Source: Pseudomonadota bacterium (GTDB lineage Bacteria; Pseudomonadota; Gammaproteobacteria; Xanthomonadales; Rhodanobacteraceae). From it: 64,000 nucleotides of DNA. Positions 5,604 to 31,197 of this stretch are shown here, in pieces. Position numbers and translations under genes: made by a program. Below the pieces are notes generated by a model, which saw nothing but the letters and a program-made list of their open reading frames with translations, did no database searches and was not told where the DNA came from. Numbering within the stretch: position 1 is the first letter of the stretch; each line of letters starts with the position of its first letter. The DNA lies in NCBI GenBank assembly GCA_021818335.1, contig JAKAEJ010000004.1, forward strand, positions 1 to 64,000, written 5' to 3'.

Positions 5604-6926
5604 ATGAGTACAACCCAGAACGTCGCCATCCGCGTGCATGGCGTGAGCAAGACTTATCGCCTCTGGACGACACCTGCGAGCCGATTGACGGTGCCCGCGG
5701 TCCAGCATCTATCCACGCGGCTGGCGGCACAGTGGCCGTGGTTGCAAAACAAGTTGGAGGCCTGGGTATCTCGCCGCATGTCGCTACACCATGCGTTGAC
5801 GGACGTGAGCTTCGAGGTGCCTCGTGGGAGTGCGCTCGGCGTCATTGGCCTGAATGGTGCGGGCAAGAGTACGTTGTTGCAAATTGTCGCTGGTGTGTTG
5901 CAGCCCAGTTACGGGACCGTGCAGATATCTGGCCGCGTAGCCGCCTTGCTCGAACTGGGCTCAGGGTTCAATCTGGAGATGACTGGGCGCGAGAACGTTC
6001 TTTTGAATGCGGCGGTGATTGGCATGCCACGTGCGCGTGCGAACGCACTGATGGAGCAGATCTTGGAATTTGCCGACATTGGTGACTATGTCGATCAGCC
6101 CGTCAAGACGTACAGCACGGGCATGGCGTTGCGGCTTGCTTTCGCCGTCCAGGTGCACATCGAACCGGAGGTGCTGATTGTTGACGAGGCACTAGCGGTG
6201 GGTGACGCGGCTTTTCAGGCACGCGCGATGGCGCGCATCGAACAGATTCTCGCACGTGGAACGACGTTGCTATTCGTAGGTCACGACCTGAATGCGGTGC
6301 GGGCATTTTGCCATCGGGCGATTCTTCTGGAAAAGGGACGTGTCGTGCTGAACGGTTCGCCCGAGGATGTCGTGACCGAGTATCTGTATCGTGTCCATCA
6401 ACAGGCACGAATCGAGACAACGGCGGCGCGTCGAAGTGCTGATCTTCAGCGACTTAACGGTGGCTACGGCCACGCAGGTACAGGTATCCGTCATGCGCGC
6501 ATTAATGGAGTCGAGCCACATGTATCGGTAATGTTCGATTCCCCCATTTCTCTGGATCTGATAGCGTGGTTCGCTGACCCCGTTGCCCACCCAACATTGA
6601 TTGTCGATGTCATGGATGGGAAGGGTTTGCAGGTCACCGGTCGGCGCATATCCCTGCCGCCAGGCGCCCGCGGGGCCGTCGAAGTGGGCATCCGCCTGAG
6701 GGCAACCCTTCAGAAGGGCGTTTACCGGCTGCGCCTGCGTCTGGTCGACGCACCCACGCTTGAGCAGACCGAGACTTTGTCGCGCCAGGAGGGACTTCTG
6801 TCCTTTGACGTCGTGGACGACAGTCGTGCCCAGTTCACTGGACTTTTTCCGCTGCCCATGGATATTGAAGTGCGGCCGCAAGTGGCGTCCGCGCTCTCCT
6901 CGAGCGCGCCCGGGCTGATCACATGA
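5604..6926 (+). CDS. wzt: Polysaccharide ABC exporter ATP-binding protein, Wzt-like (440 aa)
   Basis: Nucleotide-binding subunit of an ABC exporter for O-antigen or another surface polysaccharide. Walker A GLNGAGKST (about residues 82-90), signature YSTGMALRLAF (about 170-180), Walker B LIVDEALAVGD (191-201) and the H-loop GHDL (226-229) are all intact. Residues after about 260 form a C-terminal extension like the carbohydrate-binding domain of Wzt proteins, which reads the finished chain's terminus. The start at 5604 has AGGTG five bases upstream; the longer ORF reading is not convincing. The stop overlaps the next start as ATGA, so it heads the operon. The partner permease Wzm, normally adjacent, is not found anywhere in the window. 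Confidence 0.9.
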   Translation: MSTTQNVAIRVHGVSKTYRLWTTPASRLTVPAVQHLSTRLAAQWPWLQNKLEAWVSRRMSLHHALTDVSFEVPRGSALGVIGLNGAGKSTLLQIVAGVLQPSYGTVQISGRVAALLELGSGFNLEMTGRENVLLNAAVIGMPRARANALMEQILEFADIGDYVDQPVKTYSTGMALRLAFAVQVHIEPEVLIVDEALAVGDAAFQARAMARIEQILARGTTLLFVGHDLNAVRAFCHRAILLEKGRVVLNGSPEDVVTEYLYRVHQQARIETTAARRSADLQRLNGGYGHAGTGIRHARINGVEPHVSVMFDSPISLDLIAWFADPVAHPTLIVDVMDGKGLQVTGRRISLPPGARGAVEVGIRLRATLQKGVYRLRLRLVDAPTLEQTETLSRQEGLLSFDVVDDSRAQFTGLFPLPMDIEVRPQVASALSSSAPGLIT

Positions 6927-7906
6927 CCGATCGTCGCATGCTTTTCGTTCGAGACTTCGTCGCATATTCCGGTGGCCACGGCAAGGTCTTCGATTGGTTC
7001 CGGCATATTGAAAATCATCCTGACTGGACCTGTTCCGTTTGGCTGACACCACGCTCGCGGCGCACTTCGGACAATCCTTGGGTTGCGGCCGGTATCGAGA
7101 CATTGTCGGACGACCGGTGTCCGGTGGAAGCGTTCGACGCCCTGTTTCTGGCCGGCTTGGATTGGAATTGGGCGGAGCCCATTCAGGGACAGCCCGTGAT
7201 CAATTTAATCCAGTCAATGCGCCATGCTGATTCACACGATCCTCGTTACCCATTCTTGAGCCGGCCGGCAATCCGAATCGCGGTGAGCAAGGAAATCGCG
7301 CGAGCCATAACAAATGTTGGCTGCGCTTCCTCATCGGTCATCGTGATACCGGCGGCAGTCGACGTCCCCGAACTCCAAGCAGCGGCCGCGCGCGCGCGCG
7401 CTGTGCCGGGACACTCGCCGATCTTGGTGGATGCCACCAAAGACATTGCCCTTGGACTTGAAGTCACGGATCTACTGCGGAGGGCGGGTGTGGCTTGTAA
7501 TTGTCTTGTCGAACCACTGCCGCGCGAAGAATATCTGCGCCAACTGGCACGGGCCACCGTCGCGGTCGTGCTCCCGGCAATGACGGAGGGTTTCTATTTG
7601 CCAGCACTCGAGGCAATGGCCATGGGTGTGCCGGTCGTCAGCTGCGATGCGGGCGGCAATCGAGAATACCTGCGGCCGGATGTAAATGCTCTGGTTGCCG
7701 CGCGCGAACCGCAAGCACTGGCAAATGCCGCGGCAATGCTTGCCGACTGCAAAAGTTTGTGCGGGTCGCTGGTTGGAGCGGGCGTTGCAACGGCGGCGCG
7801 CTTCGATCTGCCGAACGAGCGCCATCTAGTGCATAAAATGCTCGACCGTATTCTGTCCATTGAGGACGTTCCGCAGCCATGCCACAAATCCGCGAGCTCG
7901 CACTGA
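6923..7906 (+). CDS. Glycosyltransferase, GT4-like (327 aa)
   Basis: A GT-B-fold glycosyltransferase, probably cytoplasmic and using a nucleotide sugar. The C-terminal half carries PAMTEGFYLPALEAMAMGVP followed by VVSCDAGGNREYL, the conserved E-x7-E donor-binding block of GT4 enzymes. The N-terminal half is short and starts with LFVRDFVAYSGGHGKVF, where a Gly-rich acceptor-side loop is expected. At 327 residues it is a little short for the family but not broken. It overlaps wzt by four bases and the following sulfotransferase gene by 28 bases, so translation is likely coupled. Sugar and linkage cannot be predicted. Confidence 0.8.
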   Translation: MTDRRMLFVRDFVAYSGGHGKVFDWFRHIENHPDWTCSVWLTPRSRRTSDNPWVAAGIETLSDDRCPVEAFDALFLAGLDWNWAEPIQGQPVINLIQSMRHADSHDPRYPFLSRPAIRIAVSKEIARAITNVGCASSSVIVIPAAVDVPELQAAAARARAVPGHSPILVDATKDIALGLEVTDLLRRAGVACNCLVEPLPREEYLRQLARATVAVVLPAMTEGFYLPALEAMAMGVPVVSCDAGGNREYLRPDVNALVAAREPQALANAAAMLADCKSLCGSLVGAGVATAARFDLPNERHLVHKMLDRILSIEDVPQPCHKSASSH

Positions 7907-8727
7907 CCGGGATCCCGCGCAGCGGTACGACGTTGGCATGCACCATCATCAACCGGCACCCACACGCTTTGGCGTTGGCCGAGCCGCTTGACCCGAATGC
8001 TTGGCCGATCGATTTCGATGCGCAACTCAGCGTGGTGAGAAGCGAGTTCATTTTCTTGCGTGAACACTGCCTCCGTACCGGCCGAGCGCCTAGCAGGCAG
8101 CGGAACGGCGTGATCGTCGACAATTTCTTCTACAGCGTCGGCACGGAACGGCGGTCTTACGCGGCGGATGTGGCTGAGGTTGTTATCGGTAAGCCTCTGC
8201 ACCGCGACTTCCTGCTGGTCATCAAGCAGAATGCGGCGTTCCTGGCTTTGCTGCAGCGGCTATCTGAGCAAATGCATGTGATAGCAGTCGTACGTCATCC
8301 GCTTGCGGTGCTCGCATCCTGGTTGAACGTCGACTTGCCGGTGGCGCATGGTCGATTGCCAATGGCCGAACGAATGGATTCGAACTTACGTGCAACGCTC
8401 GATGCCGAAAATGACGTGCGTAACAGGCAACTACACGTGTTGGATTGGTGTTACCGGCGGATCGGTAGCCTGCGGGGGCAGGTCACGGTGGTGAGCTACG
8501 AGTCGATTCTCGCATCCCATGGGCGAGCGTTGCTGGCCGCTTGTGGGTTGCCGACCGATGATTTGCGTACGCCCCCACCAGACTGGCTGCGAGCACCAGC
8601 AATGGCGCCATCTGCACAGATAGAAGCCTTTGCGCGGTCGCTGCAAGCGATGCCTGACAATGCCGGCTGGCGGGAATTTTATGGTGAATCCGATCTGCGC
8701 CGGTATGTGGAGAGGCCGGGACCATGA
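7879..8727 (+). CDS. Sulfotransferase (282 aa)
   Basis: Predicted PAPS-dependent sulfotransferase that moves a sulfuryl group to an acceptor, here probably a sugar hydroxyl of the glycan made by the locus. The 5'-phosphosulfate loop is GIPRSGTTLACTIINRHP near the N-terminus (residues 11-28), and the 3'-phosphate site is VVRHPLAVLASWL in the middle. There is no signal peptide or membrane helix, so it should act in the cytoplasm before export. It overlaps the GT4 gene upstream and the second sulfotransferase gene downstream by four bases. The acceptor is unknown. A sulfotransferase-fold protein without this activity is possible but less likely given the intact motifs. Confidence 0.8.
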   Translation: MPQIRELALTGIPRSGTTLACTIINRHPHALALAEPLDPNAWPIDFDAQLSVVRSEFIFLREHCLRTGRAPSRQRNGVIVDNFFYSVGTERRSYAADVAEVVIGKPLHRDFLLVIKQNAAFLALLQRLSEQMHVIAVVRHPLAVLASWLNVDLPVAHGRLPMAERMDSNLRATLDAENDVRNRQLHVLDWCYRRIGSLRGQVTVVSYESILASHGRALLAACGLPTDDLRTPPPDWLRAPAMAPSAQIEAFARSLQAMPDNAGWREFYGESDLRRYVERPGP

Positions 8728-9482
8728 GTGGATCGCCGCGCATCGCCTTTATGATCGGTGGAGTTCAAAAGGCCGGCACCACGGCGTTGTATGAGGCGTT
8801 GCGCTTGCATCCACGGCTGCGCCTTCCATTCGCCAAGGAAGCGCACGTTTTCGATGCTGCAGACTATGATGATCTTGCTGCGCCAGATGATATTGACCGG
8901 CGATTTCAAGCTTTGTTCGCCGAGCCGTTCAGTGATGGTTTCCTACATGGCGATGCCACGCCAGTGACGCTGTTCCATCCGCTGGCAGTCGCGCGCGCAT
9001 GGCGTTACAACGCTGGAATGCGCTGGGTGATCCTACTGCGCGATCCGGAGGCGCGTGCGCGTTCGCAGTACGCCATGGAGCGCGCGCGGGGGGATGAGCG
9101 TCTGTCGTTTTGGAACGCGTTGCTCGTTGAGCCGTTGCGGTTGAGGCGGGCCGGATCTGACTGGAGTGAACCTTCAGCGTGGCGCCACCATAGCTATCTC
9201 GCGCGAGGGCGCTATTTGCCACAACTCCAACGCCTCTATGAGCTGTTCCCCGCAGCCCAGATTCTTTTGCTGACTCATGCCGAGTGGCGCGACCATCCCT
9301 CAGAGACGCTGCAGAGGATATACCGGCATTTGCAGATCGAAGATCCAACCCATCCCCCACCTGTTACCACGACGCCAGTTCAGCCACTCGGTAGCAGCAC
9401 CAGGCTCCTGCCGGTGCTGCGCCTTTGGTCGGTTTGGCAGCGTTGGCGCGTGCGGCGGCACTTTGGAATAGATCCACGCTGA
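8724..9482 (+). CDS. Sulfotransferase, heparan-sulfate (NDST/HS3ST)-like type (252 aa)
   Basis: A second, clearly different sulfotransferase. GVQKAGTTALYEALRLHP at residues 13-30 is the phosphosulfate loop in the form seen in heparan-sulfate N- and 3-O-sulfotransferases and their bacterial relatives (G-x-x-K-x-G-T-T). ILLRDPEARARSQYAMERARG is the 3'-phosphate site with the RDP..R..S pattern. A late HHSYLARGRYLPQLQRLYELF segment also fits this subfamily. It is coupled to the previous gene by an ATGA overlap, and 41 nt separate it from the metB-like gene. Two unlike sulfotransferases in series suggest sulfation at two positions or of two residues. Confidence 0.82.
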   Translation: MSGSPRIAFMIGGVQKAGTTALYEALRLHPRLRLPFAKEAHVFDAADYDDLAAPDDIDRRFQALFAEPFSDGFLHGDATPVTLFHPLAVARAWRYNAGMRWVILLRDPEARARSQYAMERARGDERLSFWNALLVEPLRLRRAGSDWSEPSAWRHHSYLARGRYLPQLQRLYELFPAAQILLLTHAEWRDHPSETLQRIYRHLQIEDPTHPPPVTTTPVQPLGSSTRLLPVLRLWSVWQRWRVRRHFGIDPR

Positions 9483-9523
9483 ACAATTAAACTAGGGTCC
9501 ATTCCTTGCGTTGGGAGATTGCG

Positions 9524-10690
9524 TTGGCCACTAGCACCCGAAATCTTGGATTGGCGCTCGCCACGCGAGCCATTCACGCTGGACAAATGCCCGACCCTTC
9601 CACGGGTGCCATCATGACGCCGATTTACGCGACGTCTACCTACGTGCAGGAAAGCCCAGGCAAGCATAAGGGTTACGAATATTCGCGCACGCAGAATCCC
9701 ACCCGGGCAGCTTACGAGCGCTGCGTAGCGGACCTCGAGGGAGGTGTGGCGGGTTTTGCGTTTGCTTCGGGGTTGGCTGCAGCCAGCACGGTGTTGGAAA
9801 TGCTCGATACCGGCAGCCATGTCATCGCCATGGATGATTTGTACGGTGGGACGTTCCGACTTTTCGAGGGAGTCCGTCGGCGTAGCGCTGGCCTCGACTT
9901 TGCGTTTGTTGATCTGAATGACGCCGATGCACTGAAGTTTGCGCTTAAGCCGAATACCAGGATGATCTGGGTAGAAACCCCAACCAATCCGATGCTCAAG
10001 CTGGTCGACCTGGAGCGGATCGCCAAGTTCGCACATAAGTTTGGCTTGATCTTGGCCGTGGATAACACGTTCAGTTCGCCAATCCTTCAGCGGCCACTTG
10101 AGTACGGGGCCGATCTGGTGCTGCATTCGGCAACCAAATACCTCAATGGTCATTCAGATATGGTTGGCGGTATCGTTGTCGCCGGCAATCGGGAACTGGC
10201 CGGACGTATGGCGTTCTTGCAGAATTCCGTGGGTGCCGTTGCCGGCCCGTTTGATAGCTTTCTCGCGTTGCGCGGCCTCAAGACGCTGCACTTGCGAGTG
10301 CGCGCGCATTGCGAAAACGCCCTGGAGTTGGCGCGATGGCTGGAGCGCCATCCAGCCATCGAGCGCGTGATCTATCCCGGCCTAAGGAGCCACCCGCAGT
10401 ATTTGCTAGCCAGACGCCAGATGCAGGGCTCCGGTGGCATCGTCGGCATTGAGGTGAAGGGTGGACTTAAGAAGGCTCGCCGGATGCTGGAGCGTTGTCA
10501 TCTTTTCGCGCTGGCGGAATCCCTTGGTGGTGTCGAAAGCCTGATTGAGCATCCTGCAACCATGACCCACGCATCCATTCCGCCGGCGCGGCGCAAACGG
10601 CTGGGGATCAGCGACGGGTTGGTCCGATTGTCGGTGGGGGTGGAGGCGATTGAAGACTTGCGCACAGAACTGACCAGAGCGTTGGTATGA
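9524..10690 (+). CDS. metB: Cystathionine gamma-synthase/gamma-lyase-type PLP enzyme (388 aa)
   Basis: A Cys/Met-metabolism PLP enzyme of the MetB/MetC family. [11 protein letters not shown], the PLP-stacking YGGTFR region, and the Schiff-base lysine K205 in [17 protein letters not shown] are all present, as is [17 protein letters not shown] near the C-terminus. I chose the TTG at 9524 because GGGAG precedes it by six bases; the ORF track uses a TTG 18 bases upstream. It resembles the cystathionine gamma-lyase-like protein of Xanthomonas. In that genus metB borders the O-antigen locus, so the gene is more likely a housekeeping anchor than a sulfation enzyme. Synthase and lyase cannot be told apart by eye. 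It ends in an ATGA overlap with the fusion gene. Confidence 0.85.
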
Positions 10691-13600
10691 GCGAGCGCGC
10701 AATGACGCGCTCGAGGTCAACTGGCGTGACATCTGGCAAATCCGGTTTGCGACGAGCGATTCTGGTGTTGGGGATGCATCGCAGTGGCACTTCTGCTGTC
10801 ACGCGGGTGCTTAATTTGCTTGGCGCAGAAATCGGGTTGCGATTGATGGAGCCTGCGCCCGACAATCCAACGGGCTTTTGGGAACATCTCGACGCGGTCA
10901 CGATTCATGATCGACTACTTGGTGATCTGGGGCGCAGCTGGGATGACTTTCGACCCCTGCCCGGGGGCTGGTTGCACTCCGCTGCGGCAGGACATGCCTA
11001 TGAGCAAATCCTGAATCTGGTCCGGAGCGATTTTTCCGATGCGCCCCTCTGGGCGATCAAGGACCCGCGATTGTGTGTGTTTCTGCCGTTGTGGGAGCGT
11101 GCACTGCGCAGTCTGGGCATCGTCCCCTGCCCGATCATTGTGCTGCGCGACCCAGCAGAGGTGGCGGATTCGCTGAAGCGGCGAAATGCTATTCCCGCTG
11201 CACTGGGCGAGGCTCTATGGTGCCGTTACACGGTCGAGGCCCTACGAGCCAGCGAGCGCCATGCGCGCGCAGGACTTCGTTTCAGGGACTTGTTACAAGA
11301 CTGGCGATCGGAGATGCATCGTCTCGATCTGGCCCTCGGTCTGGAGCTGGACTGGAGCGAACAGGCCACTGGCTGCGTGGATGACTTTCTGCACCCAATG
11401 GGCGCCGCGCCGGAACCAGCCTCCTTGGTCACGTCACCAGCCAGCGATCGTCTGCGTGGGTTACTCAATTCTGGAGCCCTGGATCTTCGGCTGCTGGCGG
11501 ATGCGGCGGATGCTGTCCTCGAGCATTTCGTGGGCGAGTCGCTTGCCTGTGCGGAGGCCGAATACTTGCGGGTCGAGCGAACTCGTTACGAAGAGGCAGC
11601 AAGTCGTGCGAAGGATCGCTTGGATGAACTGGTGCAGTGGGCCGAAGGGTGCGATCGGGATTTGGAGATCGCCCGTACGCGGCTGGTTGAATTGCAAGAC
11701 GAGCACGAACGCGTCGCTCGGTGGGGCAAGACGCTGGAAAGCGATCTACTCAGGGAGAGGGCAGATCGCGATACGCTGGTCGCGAGCTTGAGGTCGGAGC
11801 AAGAACGATTACGTGCACAAGCTGAGCGCGTTCGCGGTGAACTAATGACCGTTCAACGTGCACTTGCGCAAATCACCTCGTCACGATCATGGCGAATGAC
11901 TAGGCCGCTTAGAGTGATAGCTGGCGTCTTGCGTAGCGATGGGGATTACCTTCGCCGAGGTTTTGCAAACTGGCGGCGACGCCTTGGTGAGTCCGAAGTT
12001 CCGCTTGTGGACATGGGACAGCGGACGGCGTCGGGAACGAGGCTCAGGTCGGGTTCCCCAACTGCCTTGACAGCATCCGCCGACAACCCGGGCAGGGTAC
12101 CGGAGAAGCCCGAGTCGCCCGACATTTCCATGCTGGGATTCCCTTCTTACCACCAGATTAAAGTCTCGATAATCATCCCGACCTACGGCAATTTGCCGGT
12201 CACGGCTGCGTGCCTGAAGTCGATCGCAGCCAATCCACCGCAGATGCCCTATGAGGTCATCGTGGTCGAAGATGCGTCGGGCGATTCCGCAATCGATGTG
12301 CTTCGTCAGGTGGAGGGGCTTCGATTTGAGTTCAACCCAGAAAATCTCGGGTTCGTGCGTTCCTGCAATCGCGCCGCAGGTTTGGCGCGCGGCGAATACC
12401 TGCATTTCCTTAACAACGATACTGAGGTAACGCCCGGATGGCTGGATTCGCTATTGGGTGTTTTCCAAAGCAACGACGACTGCGGGTTGGCAGGTTCAAA
12501 ACTGGTTTATGCAGATGGCCGCCTGCAAGAGGCAGGCGGCATTGTGTTTCAGGACGGGAGTGCCTGGAACTACGGGCGTTTCGATGACCCAGGGCGCAGT
12601 GTCTATAATTTTCTGCGCGAGGTCGACTATGTATCCGGCGCTTCGCTGCTCATCCGAAGGGCATTATTTGAGGAATTAGGCCGGTTCGACGACCTCTATG
12701 CGCCAGCGTACTATGAGGATACGGATCTAGCCTTCAAAGTGCGCGCTGCTGGATACAGGGTTTACTACCAACCAGAGTCACTGGTTGTGCATCACGAGGG
12801 CGTTTCTCACGGCACCGACACAGGCAGCGGCATCAAGTCATACCAGATGCGCAACCAACGCATCTTTCGCGAACGTTGGCAGGCGACATTGCGGGATGAT
12901 CATTATCCGAACGCCGAGAATATTTTTCGCGCGCGCGGCCATGATAAAAAATCACGTCTCGCGCTTATCGTCGATCATTATGTCCCGCAGCCCGACAAGG
13001 ATGCGGGATCGCGGTCGATGCTGCACATTATCATGCGTTTTCTTGAACATGGTTACCGAGTTAAATTTTGGCCTGAGAACAATTATTACGACCCAACTTA
13101 CTCGCGGTGCCTAGAGCAATTAGGTGTGGAGGTCATGTACGGTAATGAGTATGTTGGCAGATTCGGTTCCTGGATCCAGGATCATGGCGCTGAATTCAAC
13201 GTGGTCTTATTAAGTCGTCCCGACGTGAGTGATAAGATAATCAAAGATATCCGTGCGTCCTGCCATGCGCCAATACTTTATTACGGCCATGACATCCATC
13301 ATCTACGCATCAAGGAACAACTGCGAGTCTCACCCACGCACGAATTGCGCCAACAAGAAAAGTCAATCAAGACGCTGGAAGAGAGGGTCTGGCGGAGCGT
13401 GGACGCCATATTCTATCCGTCAGACACTGAAGTCATGTATGTACAAGAGTGGGTCACGGAAAATGCGCAAAGGGCAACGGCTCACCTCATGCGGCTATAT
13501 GCGTACGACCCGGTCCACATAATGGACATCAATGACCTTGGTTCGAGAAATAGTCTAATTTTTGTTGCTGGTTTTTCACATCCGCCGAACATTGACGGCG

Positions 13601-14082
13601 CCTGTTGGTTTGCTCGAAGTGTGTTGCCGATTATAAGAAATCAAAGGCCCGATATCTGTCTCGACTTGGTTGGCTCGAATCCACCGGAACAGGTTCTTGC
13701 ACTATCTAGCGAGCATGTCAGAGTAATCGGCTTCGTCACCGATGATGAACTCGCACGCTGGTATGCAAGGGCGCGTGTTGCTGTCGCGCCGTTGAGGTTC
13801 GGTGCGGGTGTAAAGGGAAAGGTCATCGAGGCGATGGCATATGGAGTTCCTTGCGTTACGACTTCCATCGGTGCGCAGGGTCTTCAGCATTGTGATGCGC
13901 TATTCATTTCGGATGTTCCTGAAACGTATGCAAAAGCTGTCCTTGATTTGATGAGCAGTGACGATCTGTGGAAGGAGCATTCCCGACGCGGACAGCATTT
14001 CATTGCGCAACATTTCACCGCGGATGCGCAGTGGGGTGAGCTGGAAAAGGCGATTGTTGCGCACACCAAGCCCGTGGCGTAA
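10687..14082 (+). CDS. Sulfotransferase-GT2-GT4 trifunctional fusion (1131 aa)
   Basis: Three catalytic modules in one chain. Residues about 15-260 are sulfotransferase-like: the loop [21 protein letters not shown] is an apparent phosphosulfate site and [17 protein letters not shown] the 3'-phosphate site. About 285-400 is charged and heptad-like, probably coiled coil, ending in the [12 protein letters not shown] linker common in large glycosyltransferases. About 490-740 is a GT2 domain ([43 protein letters not shown]). About 755-1131 is GT-B/GT4-like, starting [18 protein letters not shown] and ending with [18 protein letters not shown]. The start overlaps the metB stop (ATGA). The last third is visibly richer in A and T than the first, suggesting separate origins. 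Predicted to build and sulfate the same glycan in the cytoplasm. Confidence 0.85.
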
Positions 14083-14188: not shown

Positions 14189-15130
14189 CTAGCTTGCCTC
14201 GTCGGCTGGCTGAATCGGGTACTTGAGATACATCAGCATGCGTAATTCCCGTCGACCACGAGTCACGGTATCGAGAATGAGCCCTGTCGTCAGAGTCAAT
14301 GCTGCGAGGACCATGATTCCCAATGCGAGGAACGCGGTTGGAAATCGCGGCACCAAGCCTGTCGCTAGGTAATGGGAAATGACCGGTGCAGCCAATGCCA
14401 GCGAGACCACCGCGAGCACCCCGGAAATTAGGCCGAAGAAGGGCATCGGGCGTTCATGGCGGATCATTCCGGCAATCAGCATTAGGATGCGCCAGCCATC
14501 GCGATAAGTCCGGAGCTTGCTTTTTGAACCTGCAGGTCGCCCTTTGTAGTCGCCTTCGACATGGGCCACTGGCATTGACAGTTCGAGTGCATGGATCGTG
14601 AGTTCCGCTTCGATGTCGAAGCCGCCCGCGAGCACCGGAAAGGATTTGACGAATCTACGCGAAAAAACTTTATAGCCGGATAGCATGTCGCGCACGCGGT
14701 CACCGAAAATGAACCGCACGGCATCCGTCAGCATGCGGTTGCCCCGCCGGTGTCCGCCGGGATACGCCGTCAGCGTCGTTTCGCGACGGATGCAGTTAAC
14801 CAAATCGAACGGCCCCTGCTGCGCCAACAACAGCATTTGTGGTGCGATCGTAGCGTCATAGGTGTCGTCGCCGTCAACCATCACGTACCAGTCAGCGTCG
14901 ATGTCGCGAAACATACGCCGGACCACGTGACCCTTGCCTTGCTGTGCTTCCTGGCGCACGATGGCGCCGGCTGCGCGCGCAAGCTCGGCCGTCCGGTCAC
15001 TGGAATTATTGTCGTACACGTAGATCCGCGCGCCGGGAAGCGCTTTGTGGAAGGCCGAGACGACACCGGCAATGGTGACCTCTTCGTCGTGGCAGGGAAT
15101 GAGCAGCGCAATAGAAGGACTCCGACCCAT
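14189..15130 (-). CDS. GT2 glycosyltransferase with C-terminal membrane helices, GtrB/DPM1-like (313 aa)
   Basis: Predicted to transfer a sugar from a nucleotide donor to undecaprenyl phosphate on the inner face of the membrane. The GT2 core has LLIPCHDEEVTI, VYDNNSSDRT and MVDGDDTYD (the DxD-type metal site) in the first 110 residues. Two or three hydrophobic helices follow after about residue 220. The ATG at 15130 is preceded by GGAGG at good spacing; the longer ORF upstream is not supported. It is convergent with the fusion gene and lies 285 nt downstream of a GT-C-like gene on the same strand, a plausible partner that would use the lipid-linked sugar on the outer face. Confidence 0.85.
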   Translation of the reverse strand: MGRSPSIALLIPCHDEEVTIAGVVSAFHKALPGARIYVYDNNSSDRTAELARAAGAIVRQEAQQGKGHVVRRMFRDIDADWYVMVDGDDTYDATIAPQMLLLAQQGPFDLVNCIRRETTLTAYPGGHRRGNRMLTDAVRFIFGDRVRDMLSGYKVFSRRFVKSFPVLAGGFDIEAELTIHALELSMPVAHVEGDYKGRPAGSKSKLRTYRDGWRILMLIAGMIRHERPMPFFGLISGVLAVVSLALAAPVISHYLATGLVPRFPTAFLALGIMVLAALTLTTGLILDTVTRGRRELRMLMYLKYPIQPADEAS

Positions 15131-15415
15131 TTCCAGCCTCCAGACCGCGTCGCCTGTCGGGTTACAAGCGAGCGGTAACGTGTCAAATGATCCGATCGGT
15201 GCCTGCCGGCAGGTCCCCCGCGCGGACGCGTGGGGCGGTGGAGCGTGCCTGGGCGGACAGTCCGGGGTCACTGTAACGGATTCGCACGGTGGTGGTTGGC
15301 ACTACGGGGGACAAACGGGGAAACTCGACGCAAGTGCGGGACGGCCGAAGCGCGGTCTACTCACTGCGCCGCTGCGGAATTCTGGTGTGAGAACAGTCGC
15401 GCAGCTTCGAGACGT

Positions 15416-17494: not shown

Positions 17495-17809
17495 AATAAG
17501 TTCGCGAGCCTTAGAGGTGTTGACGTTGTTTCGAGGCTTGGCAGTGACTGAAACGTGATATGGTTAGTGTAAGGGTTAGAAGCGCTTTAAGGGTTGGTCA
17601 CTTGCCAACCCTGCGTCCAGCAGCTGCCGCACGGCCAATCTGAAGGGAGTGGGGCCGGGGGACTGCTGTTTGCGCTTGCGTTGCCCAAGGTGGTCAGAAT
17701 TCGAGGGTCAGCAGTTGGGCAAAGGGAGTGGGGCCTGCTTGTGCATGTGTAGCGTGATGTGTGCGAGATTTAACAATGGCGTTGTCGTTGGGCCCGCTTG
17801 CACGTCCGT
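17495..17809. other. Divergent intergenic region with small repeats
   Basis: About 315 bases between two divergent glycan genes. It contains a 7-bp hairpin (GGGTTGG / CCAACCC, 17591-17611) and a 14-nt direct repeat AAGGGAGTGGGGCC at 17643 and 17722. It should hold promoters for both directions, but no convincing -35/-10 pair stands out. Confidence 0.5.
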
Positions 17810-19939: not shown

Positions 19940-19970
19940 GGTGCGTCTACCTGGACAATTCCGGTCGTCC

Positions 19971-22022
19971 TTACTGTGTTTGGCTCAGTGGGCGCAACGT
20001 CGGCAACCGACCCGACATTGGGCCTGCGTTGCAAGCAACGTAACTGAAGCCTAACTGCGCCAGCGTGCGATGTTGCGTGTCTGTAATGATCAAGCGTTGA
20101 GATGCGGTGACCCACGGCCCCGTCGTAGCTTCCCCGGTTTGTCGGCCGGACGTGAAAAGCATGCGTTTCGGTGACGGCGGCGAGCTCAAGTAGACATGGA
20201 CTCCACGCACCCTGGGCGGCATGGCCCAGCCGACCTGCAAGACTGCCGGCTTCGCAACGAGGGTGCACGGGTTCTCTTTCCATTTCGTCACAAGATGCAC
20301 GCCCGCGACAAATTCCTGGAAGCTGACGGCTAGATGGTAACGTTTGTTCCGCTGGGCAATGGTCGCGACCGTGGGCGCATAGTGCGCGGCGCATAGGTCG
20401 ACCTTTGGCGTGCGATTGGTGCGAATGACTCGACACCCATCACTGTCGAAAGTGATGCCAAATTCCTTGAGCTGCGGCATCGTGGGGATGCGGTCTGCGT
20501 AGTAGGCGACATAAATCGGTCCACGATGGGCAGCGATCTTTCGGCGCATCGCCTTTCCGATGCCCTCGTCGAGAAAGGTCGTGTTACACCACTGGCCTTT
20601 GGCAAAGCAACCGGGAATGCCGACAAATGTCGCATCAGGATTTCCTTTGACAATGAATGGCACGAGCATACCCATGGGCTGATTGCCCAGCACCACCAAA
20701 GGGGACTGACCCAGATTGGGGACCCTGACGTCGAAGGTACATCGCCCAAACCGGACGTAACCAATGTCAGGAACCGTCGCGAAACCAATCACTAGCAACG
20801 CTGTTCCGGCTGTGGCAACCAGTTGGGCTGCCGGCAGGGCTGGGCTGTCTCGCCAGAATCTGCCTGCCAGCTGCAAAAGAGCGCCCATATAAATGATCGT
20901 TGCGATCACTTCCAGCACGATGGCGTATCGCAGCATCGAGAACATCACGAGCCATGTGACATAACCCAGGAACCAGAACCCTGCAAGCGCAGTCAATGGC
21001 GCGTTTCGTAACGTGCGTTTGCGGCTCCAAGTGATAACCGACATCGCCAGCAGGCAGCAACTTGCAACGAGGCCAGCTGCGAAGCGAGCATCTCTGAATT
21101 CAAACGGCATGACCGTAAGCGTGTGGTCGTCGAGCCAGTAAAACGGAGCGAACATCCAGCCGATCCAGGTCTGAGGCAGATTCCGCACATCGCGGCCTAC
21201 GCCCGGCGCAGCGAGTCTGGAGTGGAAGATGTTGTTAAACATCGGGAAAAACGGATTGCCCGTTGCACCGTAAAGATGCAGAGCCCAAGGTCCGTAAGAA
21301 ATTAGGAAAAACGCTAGCCATCCAACAAAAAATGCTAAACCACATGAGAAAATCTGTTTCCAATTGCGGCAGGACGCGAGCACGATGATGCCGGCCGCTG
21401 GCGCGTAGACGGCTGCAGTCAGCTTCAGTCCCGGCGCCACGCCAATTAGTGCGCCAATCAAAGCGGCGCGCTTGATTTTCAGTGCAACCGTTTCGGGCGC
21501 CGCCTGATCTGGCGGTCCGAATTGGCGAATAAGTATTGCGACGCCGGCCAGTACAATGGCGCTGACGAAGACCTCGTTGGTGGTAGAAACTGCTTGGGAC
21601 CAGGTTGATGCGCCGGTGATTGCAGTGAGGGTGACGATGCCCAACACGACCCCGCGCAGTGGTTTCTCCTTTGGCAGCACCGAATTCAGAGCTGCTTGAG
21701 CAGTCGCAATGGTTGCAAAGATCAGCAAGCCGAAAGGTAGTCCTTCGAGGGCAGCGACAACACGGGGCTCGCGGGCGAACCACACCATCGACGCTAGATA
21801 AAAGGGAATATCGAGATACGGGTCAAAATAGCCCTGGATTCCGGCGGCAAAAATATCTTTGCGTCCGCGATCGTGAAACAGCGCCCACGGATTGTAGAGA
21901 TGGTAGTTGAGCAGATCCCAGAAGTTGCTCTGGCCCCGATCGAGGCCAATGATCGCACCGCCAATCAGGCAAACAGCGAGCGCCCAGACGTGGGGTCGGA
22001 TGTGATGCTTGGATTGCGTCAC
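19971..22022 (-). CDS. Polytopic membrane protein, GT-C-like (683 aa)
   Basis: The first 430 residues hold about ten hydrophobic helices. The first extracytoplasmic loop contains NFWDLLNYHLYNPWALFHDR, a pattern seen in uncharacterised bacterial GT-C-like membrane proteins, where an acidic residue in this loop is catalytic. The remaining 250 residues are soluble, with several Cys residues, and probably periplasmic. Start is GTG at 22022, without a clear ribosome site. It lies 115 nt downstream of a GtrB-like gene on the same strand, so the two probably form a lipid-linked-sugar pair. I do not recognise a closer family, and the sugar is unknown. Confidence 0.6.
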   Translation of the reverse strand: MTQSKHHIRPHVWALAVCLIGGAIIGLDRGQSNFWDLLNYHLYNPWALFHDRGRKDIFAAGIQGYFDPYLDIPFYLASMVWFAREPRVVAALEGLPFGLLIFATIATAQAALNSVLPKEKPLRGVVLGIVTLTAITGASTWSQAVSTTNEVFVSAIVLAGVAILIRQFGPPDQAAPETVALKIKRAALIGALIGVAPGLKLTAAVYAPAAGIIVLASCRNWKQIFSCGLAFFVGWLAFFLISYGPWALHLYGATGNPFFPMFNNIFHSRLAAPGVGRDVRNLPQTWIGWMFAPFYWLDDHTLTVMPFEFRDARFAAGLVASCCLLAMSVITWSRKRTLRNAPLTALAGFWFLGYVTWLVMFSMLRYAIVLEVIATIIYMGALLQLAGRFWRDSPALPAAQLVATAGTALLVIGFATVPDIGYVRFGRCTFDVRVPNLGQSPLVVLGNQPMGMLVPFIVKGNPDATFVGIPGCFAKGQWCNTTFLDEGIGKAMRRKIAAHRGPIYVAYYADRIPTMPQLKEFGITFDSDGCRVIRTNRTPKVDLCAAHYAPTVATIAQRNKRYHLAVSFQEFVAGVHLVTKWKENPCTLVAKPAVLQVGWAMPPRVRGVHVYLSSPPSPKRMLFTSGRQTGEATTGPWVTASQRLIITDTQHRTLAQLGFSYVACNAGPMSGRLPTLRPLSQTQ

Positions 22023-22137: not shown

Positions 22138-23094
22138 TCATTGCTCGATCCGAATGCGCTTGACATTCTCCAGAACCTCTTCGGTCAGCTGGCGATTGAT
22201 CCTAACGAGGTCGGCGATTATCCCGAGTGTAAAGGACATGAACGCGGTGACGAGCAGAACGCCCCCGATGACCAGCGAGCGCACGTGCTGTGGTCCGTGA
22301 TGCAGCCACGCGTTGTCGGTCGCCGCCTTCCATAGGAAGTAGCCGAACGGCGCCAGTCCGATGACCAGCAGGATGACCCCCATGGTGATGAATATCGTGT
22401 ACGGTTTGTACATGATGTAGGCACGCATGATCGTGACGCTCGAGCGCCTGACATGCTGCCAATTCGAATTGAACTGGCGAGACTCGCGCAGCTTTTCGTT
22501 AGTGCCGATCGGGACGATGGAGATAGCGTGGTGCTTGTGCGCCGCCTGGATTGTGGTCTCCGTGGCAAAGCTGTAGTCGGCGATGACATTAAGCTGCATG
22601 GCCGCTTTGCGACTGTAGGCGCGGAACCCGCTAGTTGCGTCGGGGACCGCCGTTCCTGCGGCCTTGTTGAGCACCCAGGTGCCGAGCTTCTGCAGGAATT
22701 TCTTCAAGGGCGAGAAGTGCTCGATCGTGTGGGTCTCACGATCCGCGATCACTGTGTCGGCGCTGCCGCGGAGTATCGGGGCGATAAGTTCAGGAATGCA
22801 CTGCTGCTTGTACTGGTTGTCACCGTCGGTGAGCACGATGATATCCGCGTCCAACTCCAGCGATCGCATAAGCCCATCGCGGAACGAGCGACTGAGACCT
22901 TGGTTGCGGATATGGTGGACGAAGTGTTGAACGCCCATCGAGCGGGCAACGTCGACGGTGCGGTCTGTGCAGCCATCATCGACGATCAATACTTCGATTG
23001 CATCGACGCCGTCAATCTGGGTCGGTATGCCCGCAAGGACCAAAGGAAGTGTGGCTTCTTCATTAAGGCAAGGGATCATGACGACCAATTTCAT
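22138..23094 (-). CDS. GT2 polyprenyl-phosphate glycosyltransferase, GtrB/DPM1-like (318 aa)
   Basis: Predicted undecaprenyl-phosphate sugar synthase. The GT2 core has VVMIPCLNEEATLPLVL, VLIVDDGCTDRT and IIVLTDGDNQY (metal-binding DGD), all in the first 100 residues. DATSGFRAYSRKAAMQLN and an acceptor-side segment follow, then two hydrophobic helices after about residue 225, facing the membrane. The last residues are charged. It is a second enzyme of the same type as 14189-15130 but clearly divergent in sequence. The gene sits upstream of a polytopic GT-C-like gene on the same strand and opposite a UPF0104-type membrane protein gene. Confidence 0.88.
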   Translation of the reverse strand: MKLVVMIPCLNEEATLPLVLAGIPTQIDGVDAIEVLIVDDGCTDRTVDVARSMGVQHFVHHIRNQGLSRSFRDGLMRSLELDADIIVLTDGDNQYKQQCIPELIAPILRGSADTVIADRETHTIEHFSPLKKFLQKLGTWVLNKAAGTAVPDATSGFRAYSRKAAMQLNVIADYSFATETTIQAAHKHHAISIVPIGTNEKLRESRQFNSNWQHVRRSSVTIMRAYIMYKPYTIFITMGVILLVIGLAPFGYFLWKAATDNAWLHHGPQHVRSLVIGGVLLVTAFMSFTLGIIADLVRINRQLTEEVLENVKRIRIEQ

Positions 23095-23466
23095 GGGCCT
23101 CTCCGGGCATTTCCGGACGTCTGAACACGCGGGCCCAGCAGCATCGGAGCCCGGCGGGATCCGGGTTCGTGGGCTTTCAAGTCAAATAGGCGTTGCATCG
23201 ATCCGATGAACGGGTGCTCAGTCAGTGTTGCGTGCCCTCAGGTTCGCACATGGAGGCCGGTACTTCCAAGTAGGGCCGATCGCCTTCGATTGCGCGGCCA
23301 TGGGTGCTAAATTCCATTGACATTCGTATCGTAACGGTGCGTGAGCGATGGAATCCGTGTGGGGAGCTGGCGCGGCGTATTTGCGGGAGGCCTGCCTCGA
23401 GTTGAGAGGCTGGAGCGGCAACCCTCGAGCAAGTCCTGCACATCGCGTTGCTTGAGGCGGCCGAGC
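23095..23466. other. Divergent intergenic region
   Basis: About 370 bases between the GtrB-like gene and the UPF0104-like gene. The ORF track runs the latter back to 23341, but no ribosome site supports that. I see no repeat, hairpin or clear promoter. Confidence 0.5.
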
Positions 23467-24342
23467 ATGGCGATAAGGCCCGCGTATCTCGCTATGCTGC
23501 GCTTGTCGCTGGTCGCCGCGACTGTCGCGTGGTTCACCTATTACCTCTCAAACCATGGCGAATTGCTGCGTCAGCTCGTCAGTACGCCACCGCGTGTCAT
23601 CCTCATACTCTTGGTCATTTACTGGGTGTGGTTTGCAGCATTGGCGCTGACCATTCATGCGACCCTTCACTTCTGCCGAAGCACTTTGCCTGTCGGTGAA
23701 CACCTGCTGCTCAGCGCGTATTCGACGCTGGTGAACTTTTTTGTTCCGGGGCAGGGCGGTCTAGCGATACGTGGCCTTTACCTCAAGCGCCGGCATGGCC
23801 TCACCATGCGCACCTATGTGTACGCATCGCTGGTTTACTACGCATGCTACGCGGTCGTCAGCGTTGTCTTGTTGCTGAGCTCCTCAACACCTTGGTGGCA
23901 AACGCTTGGCGCATCGGCCGTTGTCGCGCTGCTGAGTCTTCTGACCCTCCGCTCTTTCTTTCGGCGCGCGGGACTGCCGGCATCACCCTTCAGATCAACT
24001 GTTGCGAAGGCAACATGCCTGATGACCGCGACGGTGCTGCAGGCGGCTGTGCAAGCGCTCGTGTATGGTTACGAGTTGCGTACGATTGATCCCGGAGTGC
24101 GTTGGTCCCAGGTAATTTCGTACACAGGCGCGGCAAATTTTTCGCTCTTTGTCGCGGTCACACCCGGGGCAATTGGAATCCGCGAGTCATTCCTGGTCTT
24201 CAGCGAGCGGCTACATCACATATCCACCGCCACGATCGTCGCTGCAAGCCTGATTGACCGATCGGTCTTCATGCTTTTACTGGCATCCCTCGCATCGCTG
24301 GCCTTTGTGTTTCATGCGCAGCGCATATTCCGCTCTCGATAG
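23467..24342 (+). CDS. UPF0104 / LPG_synthase_TM-type membrane protein (291 aa)
   Basis: About seven hydrophobic helices, with NFFVPGQGGLAIRGLYLKRR near residue 85-105 and VTPGAIGIRESFLVFSERL near residue 230, the conserved Gly-rich loops of the lysylphosphatidylglycerol synthase TM-region family (UPF0104). Stand-alone members occur often in glycan clusters, where they are suspected to move lipid-linked substrates across the membrane; this is not settled. The ATG at 23467 opens straight into the first helix, so I chose it over the ORF-track start. Beside a GtrB-like and a GT-C-like gene it could be the flippase of that module. Confidence 0.75.
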   Translation: MAIRPAYLAMLRLSLVAATVAWFTYYLSNHGELLRQLVSTPPRVILILLVIYWVWFAALALTIHATLHFCRSTLPVGEHLLLSAYSTLVNFFVPGQGGLAIRGLYLKRRHGLTMRTYVYASLVYYACYAVVSVVLLLSSSTPWWQTLGASAVVALLSLLTLRSFFRRAGLPASPFRSTVAKATCLMTATVLQAAVQALVYGYELRTIDPGVRWSQVISYTGAANFSLFVAVTPGAIGIRESFLVFSERLHHISTATIVAASLIDRSVFMLLLASLASLAFVFHAQRIFRSR

Positions 24343-24380
24343 CGTATTGCCTGCTTGACACTCAGGATGGGCGAGCCAAT

Positions 24381-25601
24381 TCACTTCGGGGAATGATCGT
24401 CAGCGTTCTTTGGCAGACTCTGTAGCACATCCCGTCGTTCGTTGTTCCAGATTGATACGCAGGGGATCTTGCTTCGGTCGCAGCGACTTGCGTACTTGAT
24501 CGAGATCTCCGTGACCTCTTCCATCAATCCTTCGTTTAACGTAATTGGATCGAGGCCGAGCTGCAAAAACCGGTCATTGGTGACGTGGAGTTCGTTCTCA
24601 TCTGCTTCGTCGCGAGGATTGGGAAGGCTCTGCAGGGTGGCGCCAGTACGGTCGGCAACCATCCGCGCCAAGTCGCGCACGCGGTGCGTCTCTGTCATTT
24701 GATTGAATATGTGCACGCGATCATTGCGTTTCGGTGGATTTTCCAGCGCGAGCTGGATGCACTTGACGGTGTCCTGAATGTGGATGAAGGCACGCGTTTG
24801 TCCTCCGCTGCCGTGGACGGTTAGCGGATAGCCAATGGCCGCCTGCATGAGGAACCGGTTGAGGACCGTGCCATAGTCCCCGTCGTAGTCAAAGCGATTG
24901 ATCAGACGCTCATCGAGTCGGGTTTGATCCGTCTGAGTGCCCCACACGATTCCTTGGTGCAAGTCGGTGATCCGGACCTTGTCGTTCTTGTTGTAGAAAT
25001 GAAACATTAACTGATCCTGCGTCTTGGTCATGTGGTAGATGCTGCCCGGATTGGCCGGATAGAGAATTTCATTTTGGACAAGTTCGCCGTCATCGGTTTC
25101 GACCTTGACAGTGAGATAACCTTCGGGAATCTTGAGGGAGGCCGTGCCGTAACCGTAGACACCCATCGTACCGAGGTGTGTCACATGGATGTCGAGGCCG
25201 CTCTCAACAACTGCTGCCAGAAGGTTATTGGTAGCGTTGAGATTGTTGTTGACCGTGTAGCGCTTGTGCCAACTGCTTTTCATCGAATAAGGCGCGGCGC
25301 GCTGTTCCGCGAAGTGCACGACGGCATGGGGCTGATAATGCTTCAGAAGGTCGAGCAAACGCTGGTAGTTCGCCGCGACATCAAAATTGTAGAATTCCAT
25401 CTTCCTGCCCGTGACGCCCTGCCACGCAAGAAGGCGTTCGCTCATCGGCTTGATTGGAGTCAGCGATTCGCACTCGAGTTCGATATCGATGCAGCGACGT
25501 GAAAGATTGTCGACGATCAACACATCGTGTCCTTCCGCCGAGAGATGGAGTGCTGTTGGCCACCCGCAGAATCCATCACCGCCGAGTACTAGAATTTTCA
25601 T
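24381..25601 (-). CDS. sqdB: UDP-sulfoquinovose synthase, SQD1/SqdB-like (406 aa)
   Basis: Makes UDP-sulfoquinovose from UDP-glucose and sulfite, putting a C6 sulfonate on glucose. It is a short-chain dehydrogenase-fold enzyme. The N-terminal NAD loop GGDGFCGWPTALHLSAEGHD matches SQD1 closely, then VDNLSRRCIDIELECESLTP, VVHFAEQRAAPYSM, the LGTMGVYG block with catalytic Thr, and YHMTK with catalytic Tyr and Lys. TDLHQGIVWGTQTD, RFDYDGDYGTVLNRF and LTVHGSGGQTRAFIHIQDTV also match and are diagnostic against ordinary UDP-glucose epimerases. I chose the ATG at 25601 over a GTG 12 bases upstream. It is transcribed away from gmd. Members usually serve sulfolipid or sulfonated-glycan synthesis; here the glycan locus argues for the latter. 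Confidence 0.9.
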   Translation of the reverse strand: MKILVLGGDGFCGWPTALHLSAEGHDVLIVDNLSRRCIDIELECESLTPIKPMSERLLAWQGVTGRKMEFYNFDVAANYQRLLDLLKHYQPHAVVHFAEQRAAPYSMKSSWHKRYTVNNNLNATNNLLAAVVESGLDIHVTHLGTMGVYGYGTASLKIPEGYLTVKVETDDGELVQNEILYPANPGSIYHMTKTQDQLMFHFYNKNDKVRITDLHQGIVWGTQTDQTRLDERLINRFDYDGDYGTVLNRFLMQAAIGYPLTVHGSGGQTRAFIHIQDTVKCIQLALENPPKRNDRVHIFNQMTETHRVRDLARMVADRTGATLQSLPNPRDEADENELHVTNDRFLQLGLDPITLNEGLMEEVTEISIKYASRCDRSKIPCVSIWNNERRDVLQSLPKNADDHSPK

Positions 25602-26016
25602 CGTGGGCGTCACCTCAACGATAGAGGGTGCGTTGCTGAGCCATGGCGCACTGGCCGTGTCGGAGTCTGGATCATTTCGTCAAGTACAGAATAGCCAGAA
25701 CACAGGCCAATTCCTAAAAGTAGTCCGATTGCCCAGTGGCAGCTGGCGCGCGAGCTGATCGGAACAAATCGATCATGATCCCATTGGGAATCAGCTTGCG
25801 TCGAAATCAATGGATAAGCTTAGCTGGGATCGGGGATCCTCCCGTCGACGCCAATCGTCCTTGTAGGGATTCGGATGGACCAACACTGAATCACGGGGCC
25901 CGCGCAAGCGTTATGGCCACTTGCGTCGCGAGTGGACGATTGGCTCGAGCTCGACGTTACTCCCCGCGCAGTCAGTTGTGCCAACATTCAACCGTCGAAC
26001 ACCACGGAAGCATCAC
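25602..26016. other. Divergent sqdB-gmd intergenic region
   Basis: About 415 bases expected to hold promoters for sqdB (minus) and gmd (plus). A GGAAG ribosome site for gmd lies at 26006-26010. I see no convincing operator, attenuator or hairpin. Confidence 0.5.
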
Positions 26017-27048
26017 GTGAAGACTGCAGTCATCACCGGCATCACCGGTCAGGATGGTGCCTATCTAGCGCAGTTGCTACTTGGCAAGGGCTACAAGGTG
26101 TTTGGTACCTATCGCCGCACCAGTTCGGTCAATCAGTGGCGCATCCAGGAACTTGGCATTGCTGAGCACCCCAGGCTGGAGCTGGTCGAGTACGACCTGA
26201 CCGATCAGGGCACCAGCATTCGCCTGATCGAGCAGGCGAAACCGGACGAGGTCTACAACCTCGCTGCCCAGAGTTTTGTAGGCGTGTCGTTCGATCAGCC
26301 GGCAACAACCGCGCAGATTACCGGCGTGGGCGCTCTTTTCTTGCTGGAAGCGATCCGCATGGTCAATCCCGGGATTCGCTATTACCAGGCATCGACATCA
26401 GAGATGTTCGGAAAGGTCCAAGCTGTCCCGCAGGGTGAAGGTACGCCATTCTGGCCCCGGAGCCCTTACGGCGTGGCAAAACTCTATGCCCACTGGATGA
26501 CCGTCAATTATCGTGAGAGCTACTTGATTTTCGGCGCAAGTGGCATCCTGTTCAATCACGAATCACCGCTCCGTGGCCGAGAATTTGTAACCCGGAAGAT
26601 CACCGATGGCGCAGCGCGTATTGCGCGCGGCAAGCTAGAAGTCCTGGAGCTGGGCAATTTGGATGCGCGGCGCGACTGGGGTTTCGCGCCGGAATATGTC
26701 GAAGGCATGTGGCGGATGCTTCAAGCTGAACATCCGGATAGCTACGTGCTTGCCACAGGTCGAACGGAGTCCGTGCGCGACTTCGTCAACCTAGCGTTTT
26801 CGGCGGTGGATCTGCCGCTGCGCTGGCAAGGGCAGGGCGTCGATGAGGTGGGCGTTGATGCGCGTGGCCAGGTGCGGGTTCGGGTCAATCCGCGTTACTA
26901 CCGGCCTGCCGAAGTGGACTTGCTGATTGGCGATCCATCCAAGGCGCGCCGAGAGCTGGGCTGGGAGGCGCGTACCTCGCTCGAAGAATTGTGCCGATTG
27001 ATGGTGCAGGCCGACCTAGCGCGTGTGGAGCATGACCGCTCGTTCTGA
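26017..27048 (+). CDS. gmd: GDP-mannose 4,6-dehydratase (343 aa)
   Basis: Converts GDP-D-mannose to GDP-4-dehydro-6-deoxy-D-mannose, the precursor of GDP-D-rhamnose or GDP-L-fucose. Visible landmarks are the Rossmann loop [19 protein letters not shown], the [14 protein letters not shown] segment, [15 protein letters not shown], the catalytic STSEMFG and YGVAK motifs, [16 protein letters not shown], and the [15 protein letters not shown] block. All fit Gmd rather than dTDP-glucose dehydratase. The start is GTG at 26017 with GGAAG six bases upstream; the upstream ORF extension has no support. It overlaps the next gene, the reductase rmd, so the two form one operon making one sugar nucleotide. 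Confidence 0.93.
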
Positions 27049-27937
27049 TCAACCGCTCGCTCTGGTGACCGGTGCGCGCGGATTCACGGGTCGTTACGTG
27101 CGTGCCGAACTGGAGCGATCGGGCTATCGGGTGATGGGTGTCGTCCAGGAGGTCGCCCTGAACGATGAGATCACGCTGGACTTGCGTGATCGAGCTGTCG
27201 TCCTCGGTACATTGGCGCCAATGGCGCCTGATGTGGTGGTGCACCTCGCGGGAATCCCTCTTGTGGCGCATGGGGACGCCGCGGCGCTTTATCAGACTAA
27301 TCTTGTGGCCACACGAAATCTTCTGGAGGCGCTTGCGCAATGCTCGGGGCCACCGCGTTCAGTGCTGCTGGCCAGCAGTGGTAACGTCTACGGGAACATT
27401 GGCGCGGAAGTGCTCGACGAGTCGATGGCCCCAAGGCCAGCCAATGACTACGCCGTCAGCAAGCTGGCCATGGAGCACATGGCGAGGCTTTGGATGGAAC
27501 GACTGCCGATCGTTATCGCGAGACCTTTCAATTACACGGGTGTTGGGCAGAGCGAGGATTTCCTGCTGCCGAAGATCGTGGGTCATTTTCGCCGTGGTGC
27601 GCGCGTGATCGAGCTTGGCAATACCCAAGTCGCACGTGACTTCAGCGATGTGCGCGAGGTTGCCCGCTGCTATCGCGGGCTGTTAGAAGTGCCAGCGGCC
27701 GCAGGTCGCACGTTCAACGTGTGTTCGGGCAGCGTCACGGTGCTGGACGACGTTCTGGACATGATGCGTGCGTTGGCGGGCTATGCCATCGAAGTGCGTA
27801 TCAATCCGGCGTTCGTTCGTGGCCAGGAGATTGCCCGCCTGCGTGGCAGCAACGCACTCCTGCATGGCGTGCTTGGCGATGCACCAGGCACCATTCCCCT
27901 TGAAGCAACCCTGCGCTGGATGTACACGTCAATTTGA
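27032..27937 (+). CDS. rmd: GDP-6-deoxy-D-mannose reductase, Rmd-like (301 aa)
   Basis: Short-chain-dehydrogenase-fold enzyme expected to reduce the Gmd product to GDP-D-rhamnose. The N-terminus has [25 protein letters not shown], the SSGNVYG serine block and the catalytic YAVSK motif, then [10 protein letters not shown] and [14 protein letters not shown]. Assignment to Rmd rests on overlap with gmd (17 bases) and on the short, 4-reductase-like sequence. GDP-fucose synthase (fcl) is the main alternative, but its additional epimerase signature is not evident. I took the ATG at 27032; a GTG at 27023 is also in frame. The RgpF-domain protein in the locus supports a rhamnose product. Confidence 0.8.

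Positions 27938-29814: not shown

Positions 29815-31197
<1,383 letters not shown>

Follow-up and report, generated by a model that had tools for sequence, protein, structure and literature searches.

Sulfoquinovose has been studied mostly as a membrane sugar of plants and algae and is best known from photosynthetic membrane lipids. Its activated form, UDP-sulfoquinovose, is also known for glycoconjugates and archaeal N-glycans, and Agl3 of the Sulfolobus N-glycan illustrates that it can feed a surface glycan (PMC8987622). Sulfated capsule clusters containing sulfotransferases, genes for 3'-phosphoadenosine 5'-phosphosulfate (PAPS) and ATP-binding cassette (ABC) export have been described in Vibrio sp. 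KMM 8419 (PMC11641403) and Cobetia marina KMM 1449 (PMC11766843). Here, we analyzed a locus of a Rhodanobacteraceae bacterium in which a gene for UDP-sulfoquinovose synthase (sqdB) lies among sulfotransferase, glycosyltransferase, and GDP-D-rhamnose genes. It is located in the first 64 kb (this whole stretch is hereafter the window) of a 91-kb contig (JAKAEJ010000004.1) belonging to a 2.19-Mb metagenome-assembled genome (MAG) that is 77% complete. We rate at about even the chance that this is a variable surface-polysaccharide locus whose GDP-D-rhamnose-containing glycan receives sulfur in two forms, sulfonate and O-sulfate; each statement on its chemistry is read from gene families and not from product data.

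Like the Vibrio and Cobetia clusters, the locus combines polysaccharide genes with sulfotransferases, ABC export (Wzt only here), and a PAPS-based O-sulfation that is here predicted, and it also has the RgpF found in the Vibrio cluster, which carries three sulfotransferase genes. Unlike the window, both described loci include PAPS genes and a complete ABC exporter, their rhamnose comes as dTDP-rhamnose and not as GDP-D-rhamnose, and a term search of the two papers (PMC11641403 and PMC11766843) returned no sulfoquinovose. Wzm–Wzt loci for rhamnan-type O-antigens resemble the window in the Wzt with a Wzt_C-like domain, gmd–rmd, WbsX–RgpF, and glycosyltransferases, whereas the window is without a visible Wzm and has SqdB and sulfotransferases in addition. 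SQD1/SqdB and Agl3 belong to the same enzyme family as the window SqdB and share its catalytic motifs, but they serve a membrane lipid and archaeal N-glycans, whereas the window gene has bacterial polysaccharide and sulfotransferase genes around it. In the portion of the open-access literature that was covered, we found no description of a sulfoquinovose-containing surface glycan in bacteria, nor of one bearing both sulfonate and sulfate, nor of a UDP-sulfoquinovose synthase paired with a sulfotransferase in a gene cluster. Within those bounds, this agrees with the initial annotation, in which no O-antigen was known to combine a sulfonated hexose with sulfate esters.

The sqdB assignment of that annotation was borne out as well. 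The window SqdB aligned with Arabidopsis SQD1 (PDB 1qrr/1i24) over residues 6–389 with an E of 2e-98, and both parts of the [ST]MG...YxxxK signature of UDP-sulfoquinovose synthases (PMC8987622) were intact, as LGTMG at 147 and SIYHMTK at 191. The top NCBIfam model, UDPsulfquin_syn (NF041015), scored 334.6 bits, below its equivalog cut-off of 575, which is a curated naming rule and not a biochemical feature. This score places the window SqdB in a side branch of the family, and since its subfamily falls outside NF041015, the naming relies on its resemblance to SQD1, on motifs, and on relatives. The predicted reaction converts UDP-glucose and sulfite into UDP-sulfoquinovose, which CysH fusions of close relatives support indirectly.

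The other ingredients were likewise found. The GDP-D-rhamnose pathway pair, gmd and rmd, lies side by side as first proposed, with gmd exceeding its equivalog cut-off and rmd having GDP-6-deoxy-D-mannose reductases (6x3b and 2pk3) as its best named-structure matches; the WbsX/RgpF and GT2/GT4 assembly enzymes were recovered at the expected positions by Pfam. Of three sulfotransferase domains annotated in three genes, two are clear and have PAPS motifs, the second also matching in the PDB a sulfotransferase (3rnl, E 8e-11) and heparan 3-O-sulfotransferases. The third, at the N-terminus of a three-domain protein, falls below the PF13469 cut-off and carries both PAPS-binding motifs (GMHRSGTS and RDPAEVADS); its predicted fold is a low-confidence model, with a sulfotransferase as best match at E 0.05 and none below E 0.001. 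One SqdB locus elsewhere (L045) holds a 34% homologue of the three-domain protein. The annotated exporter ATPase is of the Wzt type (8dku/6amx, E 3e-64); its Wzm partner was not seen, leaving the exporter incomplete in the window. This gap, the nearby contig start with its transposase remnant, and the probable flanking nature of a gene inside the locus, discussed below, had gone unnoticed in the initial annotation. All named gene families were thus confirmed at their places, and the earlier interpretation of the locus as a whole was partly supported.

As controls for 102 stretches around SqdB genes, some of them adjoining, we took 40 Wzx loci from SqdB-free genomes of the same class. Requiring three or more assembly genes for a stretch to count as a polysaccharide locus left 14 SqdB loci and 29 controls, the window itself being uncounted. 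Sulfotransferases occurred in 10 of the 14 SqdB loci versus 6 of the controls (one-sided Fisher p=0.002). With Pfam-confirmed sulfotransferases only, the counts were 8/14 versus 5/29 (p=0.011), and for the gammaproteobacterial subset of these, 4/6 versus 5/29 (p=0.027); a harsher count, in which unconfirmed matches were removed on the SqdB side alone, gave p=0.056. Part of the seed of the sulfotransferase profile came from SqdB loci; a profile seeded solely with sulfotransferases from elsewhere in the host arrived at the same loci once iterated. Additionally, a (phospho)adenosine 5'-phosphosulfate ((P)APS) reductase was present in 5/14 SqdB polysaccharide loci versus 0/29 controls. Among the clear examples, L046 contains Wzz, a sugar-phosphate transferase, SqdB, Wzx, and a sulfotransferase, while L081 contains Wzt, Wzm, SqdB, PAPS reductase, sulfotransferases, and GDP-mannose dehydratase-type genes; in these two and in L125 and L129, sulfotransferase and sqdB lie 1.4–5 kb apart within single clusters. 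We rejected the view of the locus as unique, as the combination recurs in these four and related gene sets occur in unrelated bacteria. Some named cultured strains, for example Rhodanobacter sp. DHG33 and Roseovarius halotolerans, have SqdB in or beside glycan genes, which makes parts of the proposal testable.

Two of the compared loci had further features of their own. L125, which also has sulfotransferases, Wzx, and an O-antigen-ligase-type protein, encodes two distinct SqdB-type proteins (6984-8162 and 18548-19900), 73% and 44% identical to that of the window, the latter of which may produce a different sulfonated sugar. In L123 (5884-10771), an O-antigen ligase, an adenosine 5'-phosphosulfate (APS) kinase, a UDP-glucose/GDP-mannose dehydrogenase, and SqdB follow in a row up to the contig end.

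In the SqdB tree, the window sequence grouped with those of L046 and L122 (Shimodaira–Hasegawa-like approximate likelihood ratio test, SH-aLRT, 86), and the next group (SH-aLRT 84) comprised 12 rows, 8 of which, window included, come from loci labelled polysaccharide. Across the tree, these labels required 12 changes versus a shuffled mean of 16.9 (0/500 as low), although several of them (L043, L122) were assigned manually and near-identical copies favour clustering. The SqdBs of Brevundimonas, Maricaulis, and cyanobacteria, which are probably lipid-type, branch apart from these and do not lie in polysaccharide loci. A genome of the same class as the host (G336) is sister to a Salinisphaera MAG in this tree, and the host was accordingly taken as gammaproteobacterial. 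The tree bears on the alternative that SqdB feeds sulfoquinovosyldiacylglycerol (SQDG) through a glycosyltransferase encoded elsewhere or in the locus, its placement among polysaccharide genes being chance or convenience. SqdB is best known for its part in sulfolipid synthesis, 88/102 SqdB stretches are not polysaccharide clusters by the rule above (some having one GT4 gene beside sqdB), and the host does encode a distant SqdX-like GT4 (37%) on another contig. Yet this GT4, the best SqdX-like candidate of the host, has 65–95% counterparts in nine congeners without SqdB and is therefore probably not dedicated to SQDG; moreover, no SqdX adjoins sqdB in the window, no dedicated SqdX was found in the 77%-complete host, and the nearest SqdB relatives are in polysaccharide loci. 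We regard the sulfolipid explanation as unlikely; the gene context favours a glycan, which is the predicted product.

In two close relatives, G002 and G011, the corresponding chromosomal site is taken up by a polysaccharide locus with a full Wzm–Wzt pair and gmd, in agreement with the surface-polysaccharide type originally assigned. In G002, the closest congener (serine dehydratase 98% identical), the site holds a pyridoxal-phosphate (PLP) enzyme gene (87%), glycosyltransferases, Wzt–Wzm, gmd (92%), rmd (85%), a permease (94%), and the dehydratase; in G011, it holds relatives of the PMT-like, GT2, and WbsX–RgpF proteins (54–80%), Wzt–Wzm, gmd, and the permease. This comparison delimits 14.2–27.9 kb as a variable polysaccharide locus of the genus. 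SqdB was found in 0/12 congeners searched and is a newly added element at this site relative to them: the segment 19971-25613 (membrane protein, GT2, LPG_TM protein, and sqdB) occupies the place of the congeners' Wzm–Wzt, and the block at 5.6–9.5 kb (Wzt, GT4, and two sulfotransferases) falls outside the part common with G002. The same arrangement lends itself to an explanation by two products, in which sulfoquinovose would go to one acceptor, a protein or lipid-linked oligosaccharide, through the GT2, LPG_TM, and GT-C proteins, and the targets of the sulfotransferases would be the rhamnan or other molecules. A gene that in G002 flanks the locus does separate the left block from the remaining genes, the sqdB segment stands where congeners have wzm–wzt, and gene orientation is mixed; the close spacing of sulfotransferases and sqdB in L046, L125, L129, and L081 argues against such a division, which we hold to be rather improbable.

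The separating gene encodes the PLP enzyme, whose 87% homologue borders the polysaccharide locus of G002 on its left, a locus without sqdB. The PLP-enzyme gene is probably a flanking gene outside the glycan pathway, and we rejected it as a sulfur supplier for the glycan. The G002 locus also encodes a 698-aa protein (L184:1350-3446) with a sulfotransferase-like P-loop, HSMFRTGSTW, and no Pfam sulfotransferase match.

For a single glycan bearing both kinds of sulfur, the following route can be proposed. UDP-sulfoquinovose formed by SqdB from UDP-glucose and sulfite would be used by a glycosyltransferase, which would add the sugar to the glycan as a carbon-bound sulfonate, and the sulfotransferases would pass sulfate from PAPS to hydroxyls, giving O-sulfate esters. 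A likely route for the former would be a lipid-carried sulfoquinovose side module, sited where congeners have wzm–wzt. In it, the DPM/ArnC-like GT2 (22138-23094), a candidate loader, would place sulfoquinovose on undecaprenyl phosphate, the LPG_synthase_TM protein might aid membrane crossing, and a GT-C-like membrane protein (19971-22022 or 15416-17494) would attach the sugar outside. Substrates, step order, and export of the glycan are all inferred, and the presence of both sulfur groups on one polymer is a prediction.

Several observations weigh against this reading. Transfer and flipping of sulfoquinovose are putative roles, assigned by family alone. The third sulfotransferase domain scores below threshold in Pfam, and six further sulfotransferase matches in the host lie outside the locus, indicating that sulfation is not locus-specific there. 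The enrichment samples are small and their statistics ignore relatedness. Within the locus there is no cysH, other sulfite-making gene, or PAPS gene, and the 77%-complete MAG yielded neither an APS kinase nor an ATP sulfurylase. APS kinase is present in 7/7 near-complete congeners, so the host gap is most simply a matter of MAG incompleteness, and we rejected the missing gene as ruling out sulfation. Lastly, wzm does not stand beside wzt, and nothing resembling the congeners' Wzm was seen among the examined pieces of the incomplete host genome; the transporter may lack a part or have been disrupted by the insertion sequence (IS) remnant. This raises the explanation of a decayed locus, in which an IS insertion removed wzm and glycan export was lost: the contig starts only 5.6 kb upstream of wzt, and a broken Mutator-type transposase remnant lies between (4.3–5.4 kb). 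However, the open reading frames (ORFs) for the glycan are full length, the SqdB and sulfotransferase motifs are intact, and wzm may sit in the unassembled part of the genome. We consider decay very unlikely.

The supply of sulfite can be followed among the relatives of the window SqdB. In L039, L043, L045, and L122, a (P)APS-reductase-family domain is fused to an SqdB that is 76–81% identical to that of the window, and stand-alone CysH adjoins sqdB in L051, L052, L059, L070, L080, L081, L097, and L116. The fusions would couple sulfite production to sulfite use, and their presence in the same tree group fits UDP-sulfoquinovose produced on site for a glycan. More broadly, and somewhat short of an even chance, bacteria of several phyla may make surface polysaccharides with sulfoquinovose and sulfate esters, the sugar being supplied on site by an SqdB branch that is in places fused to CysH, with the window as one member of a recurring and so far undescribed class. 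If true, organosulfonate would have a second source, bound in glycans; the coat would be of a new type, made highly acidic by charges both stable and labile to acid; and the CysH–SqdB fusions would gain a role.

Table 1. Features of the window and of the SqdB fusions in other loci, with their supporting evidence.
Feature	Position	Strand	Evidence
Mutator/IS256-type transposase remnant, fragmentary	4315..5428	.	PF00872 21.7 bits on - ORF 4315-5244; short broken ORFs, both strands; left edge of locus
wzt-like ABC exporter ATPase, C-terminal Wzt_C-like domain	5604..6926	+	PF00005 72 bits; Wzt_C 26.8 (cut-off 30.4); start ATG 5604
GT4 glycosyltransferase	6923..7906	+	PF13692 54 bits
Sulfotransferase 1	7879..8727	+	PF13469 30.9 bits (cut-off 27); PAPS motifs GIPRSGTT, RHPLAVLAS
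Sulfotransferase 2	8724..9482	+	PF00685 34.2 bits (cut-off 22); PAPS motifs GVQKAGTT, RDPEARARS
Cys/Met-metabolism PLP enzyme (cystathionine gamma-synthase/lyase type)	9506..10690	+	PF01053 495 bits
Three-domain protein: sulfotransferase-like N-terminus, GT2, GT4	10687..14082	+	GT2, GT4 clear; N-terminus PF13469 22.1 bits (cut-off 27)
GT2, probably polyprenyl-phosphate type	14189..15271	-	PF00535; 2 C-terminal hydrophobic segments (hydropathy); 76%, 68% congener homologues
Large membrane protein, weak PMT_2 match, putatively GT-C type	15416..17494	-	PF13231 22.4 bits, below cut-off; 54% homologue in G011
WbsX-RgpF fused two-domain glycosyltransferase, rhamnan type	17798..19939	+	PF14307 400 bits; PF05045 130 bits; 80% homologue in G011
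683-aa multi-span membrane protein, putative GT-C-like topology	19971..22022	-	~9 hydrophobic segments
GT2, dolichol/undecaprenyl-phosphate sugar synthase type	22138..23094	-	PF00535 71 bits; 5mlz (dolichol-P-mannose synthase) E 3e-10; ArnC 9bhc E 4e-7
LPG_synthase_TM family membrane protein, candidate flippase-like partner	23341..24342	+	PF03706 61.7 bits
sqdB, UDP-sulfoquinovose synthase	24381..25613	-	Probable start ATG 25601; 1qrr match, motifs, 60-82% relatives, tree
gmd, GDP-mannose 4,6-dehydratase	25921..27048	+	TIGR01472 462.8 bits (equivalog cut-off 415); 92% in G002
rmd, GDP-6-deoxy-D-lyxo-4-hexulose reductase (GDP-D-rhamnose)	27023..27937	+	6x3b E 8e-40; 2pk3 E 1e-33; 85% in G002, adjoining gmd
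Right boundary: amino-acid permease and L-serine dehydratase	27992..31197	-	Kept in congeners
(P)APS reductase-SqdB fusions	L039:8237-11212; L122:607-2643; L043:4311-6419; L045:9086-11209		Proteobacteria and Nocardioidaceae

The 683-aa membrane protein matched no family in Pfam or NCBIfam, and its structure model (predicted local distance difference test, pLDDT, 38) was not used. To the right of the locus, the genes sampled at 31.6–56 kb are mostly housekeeping. At the far left of the window, a 59-bp direct repeat (57-115 and 2039-2097, 86%) brackets an ORF at 75-2027, and a secreted-looking protein with a Phi_1 (EXORDIUM-type) domain is encoded at 2499-3983, in a bacterial host; proteins of this type are best known from plants.

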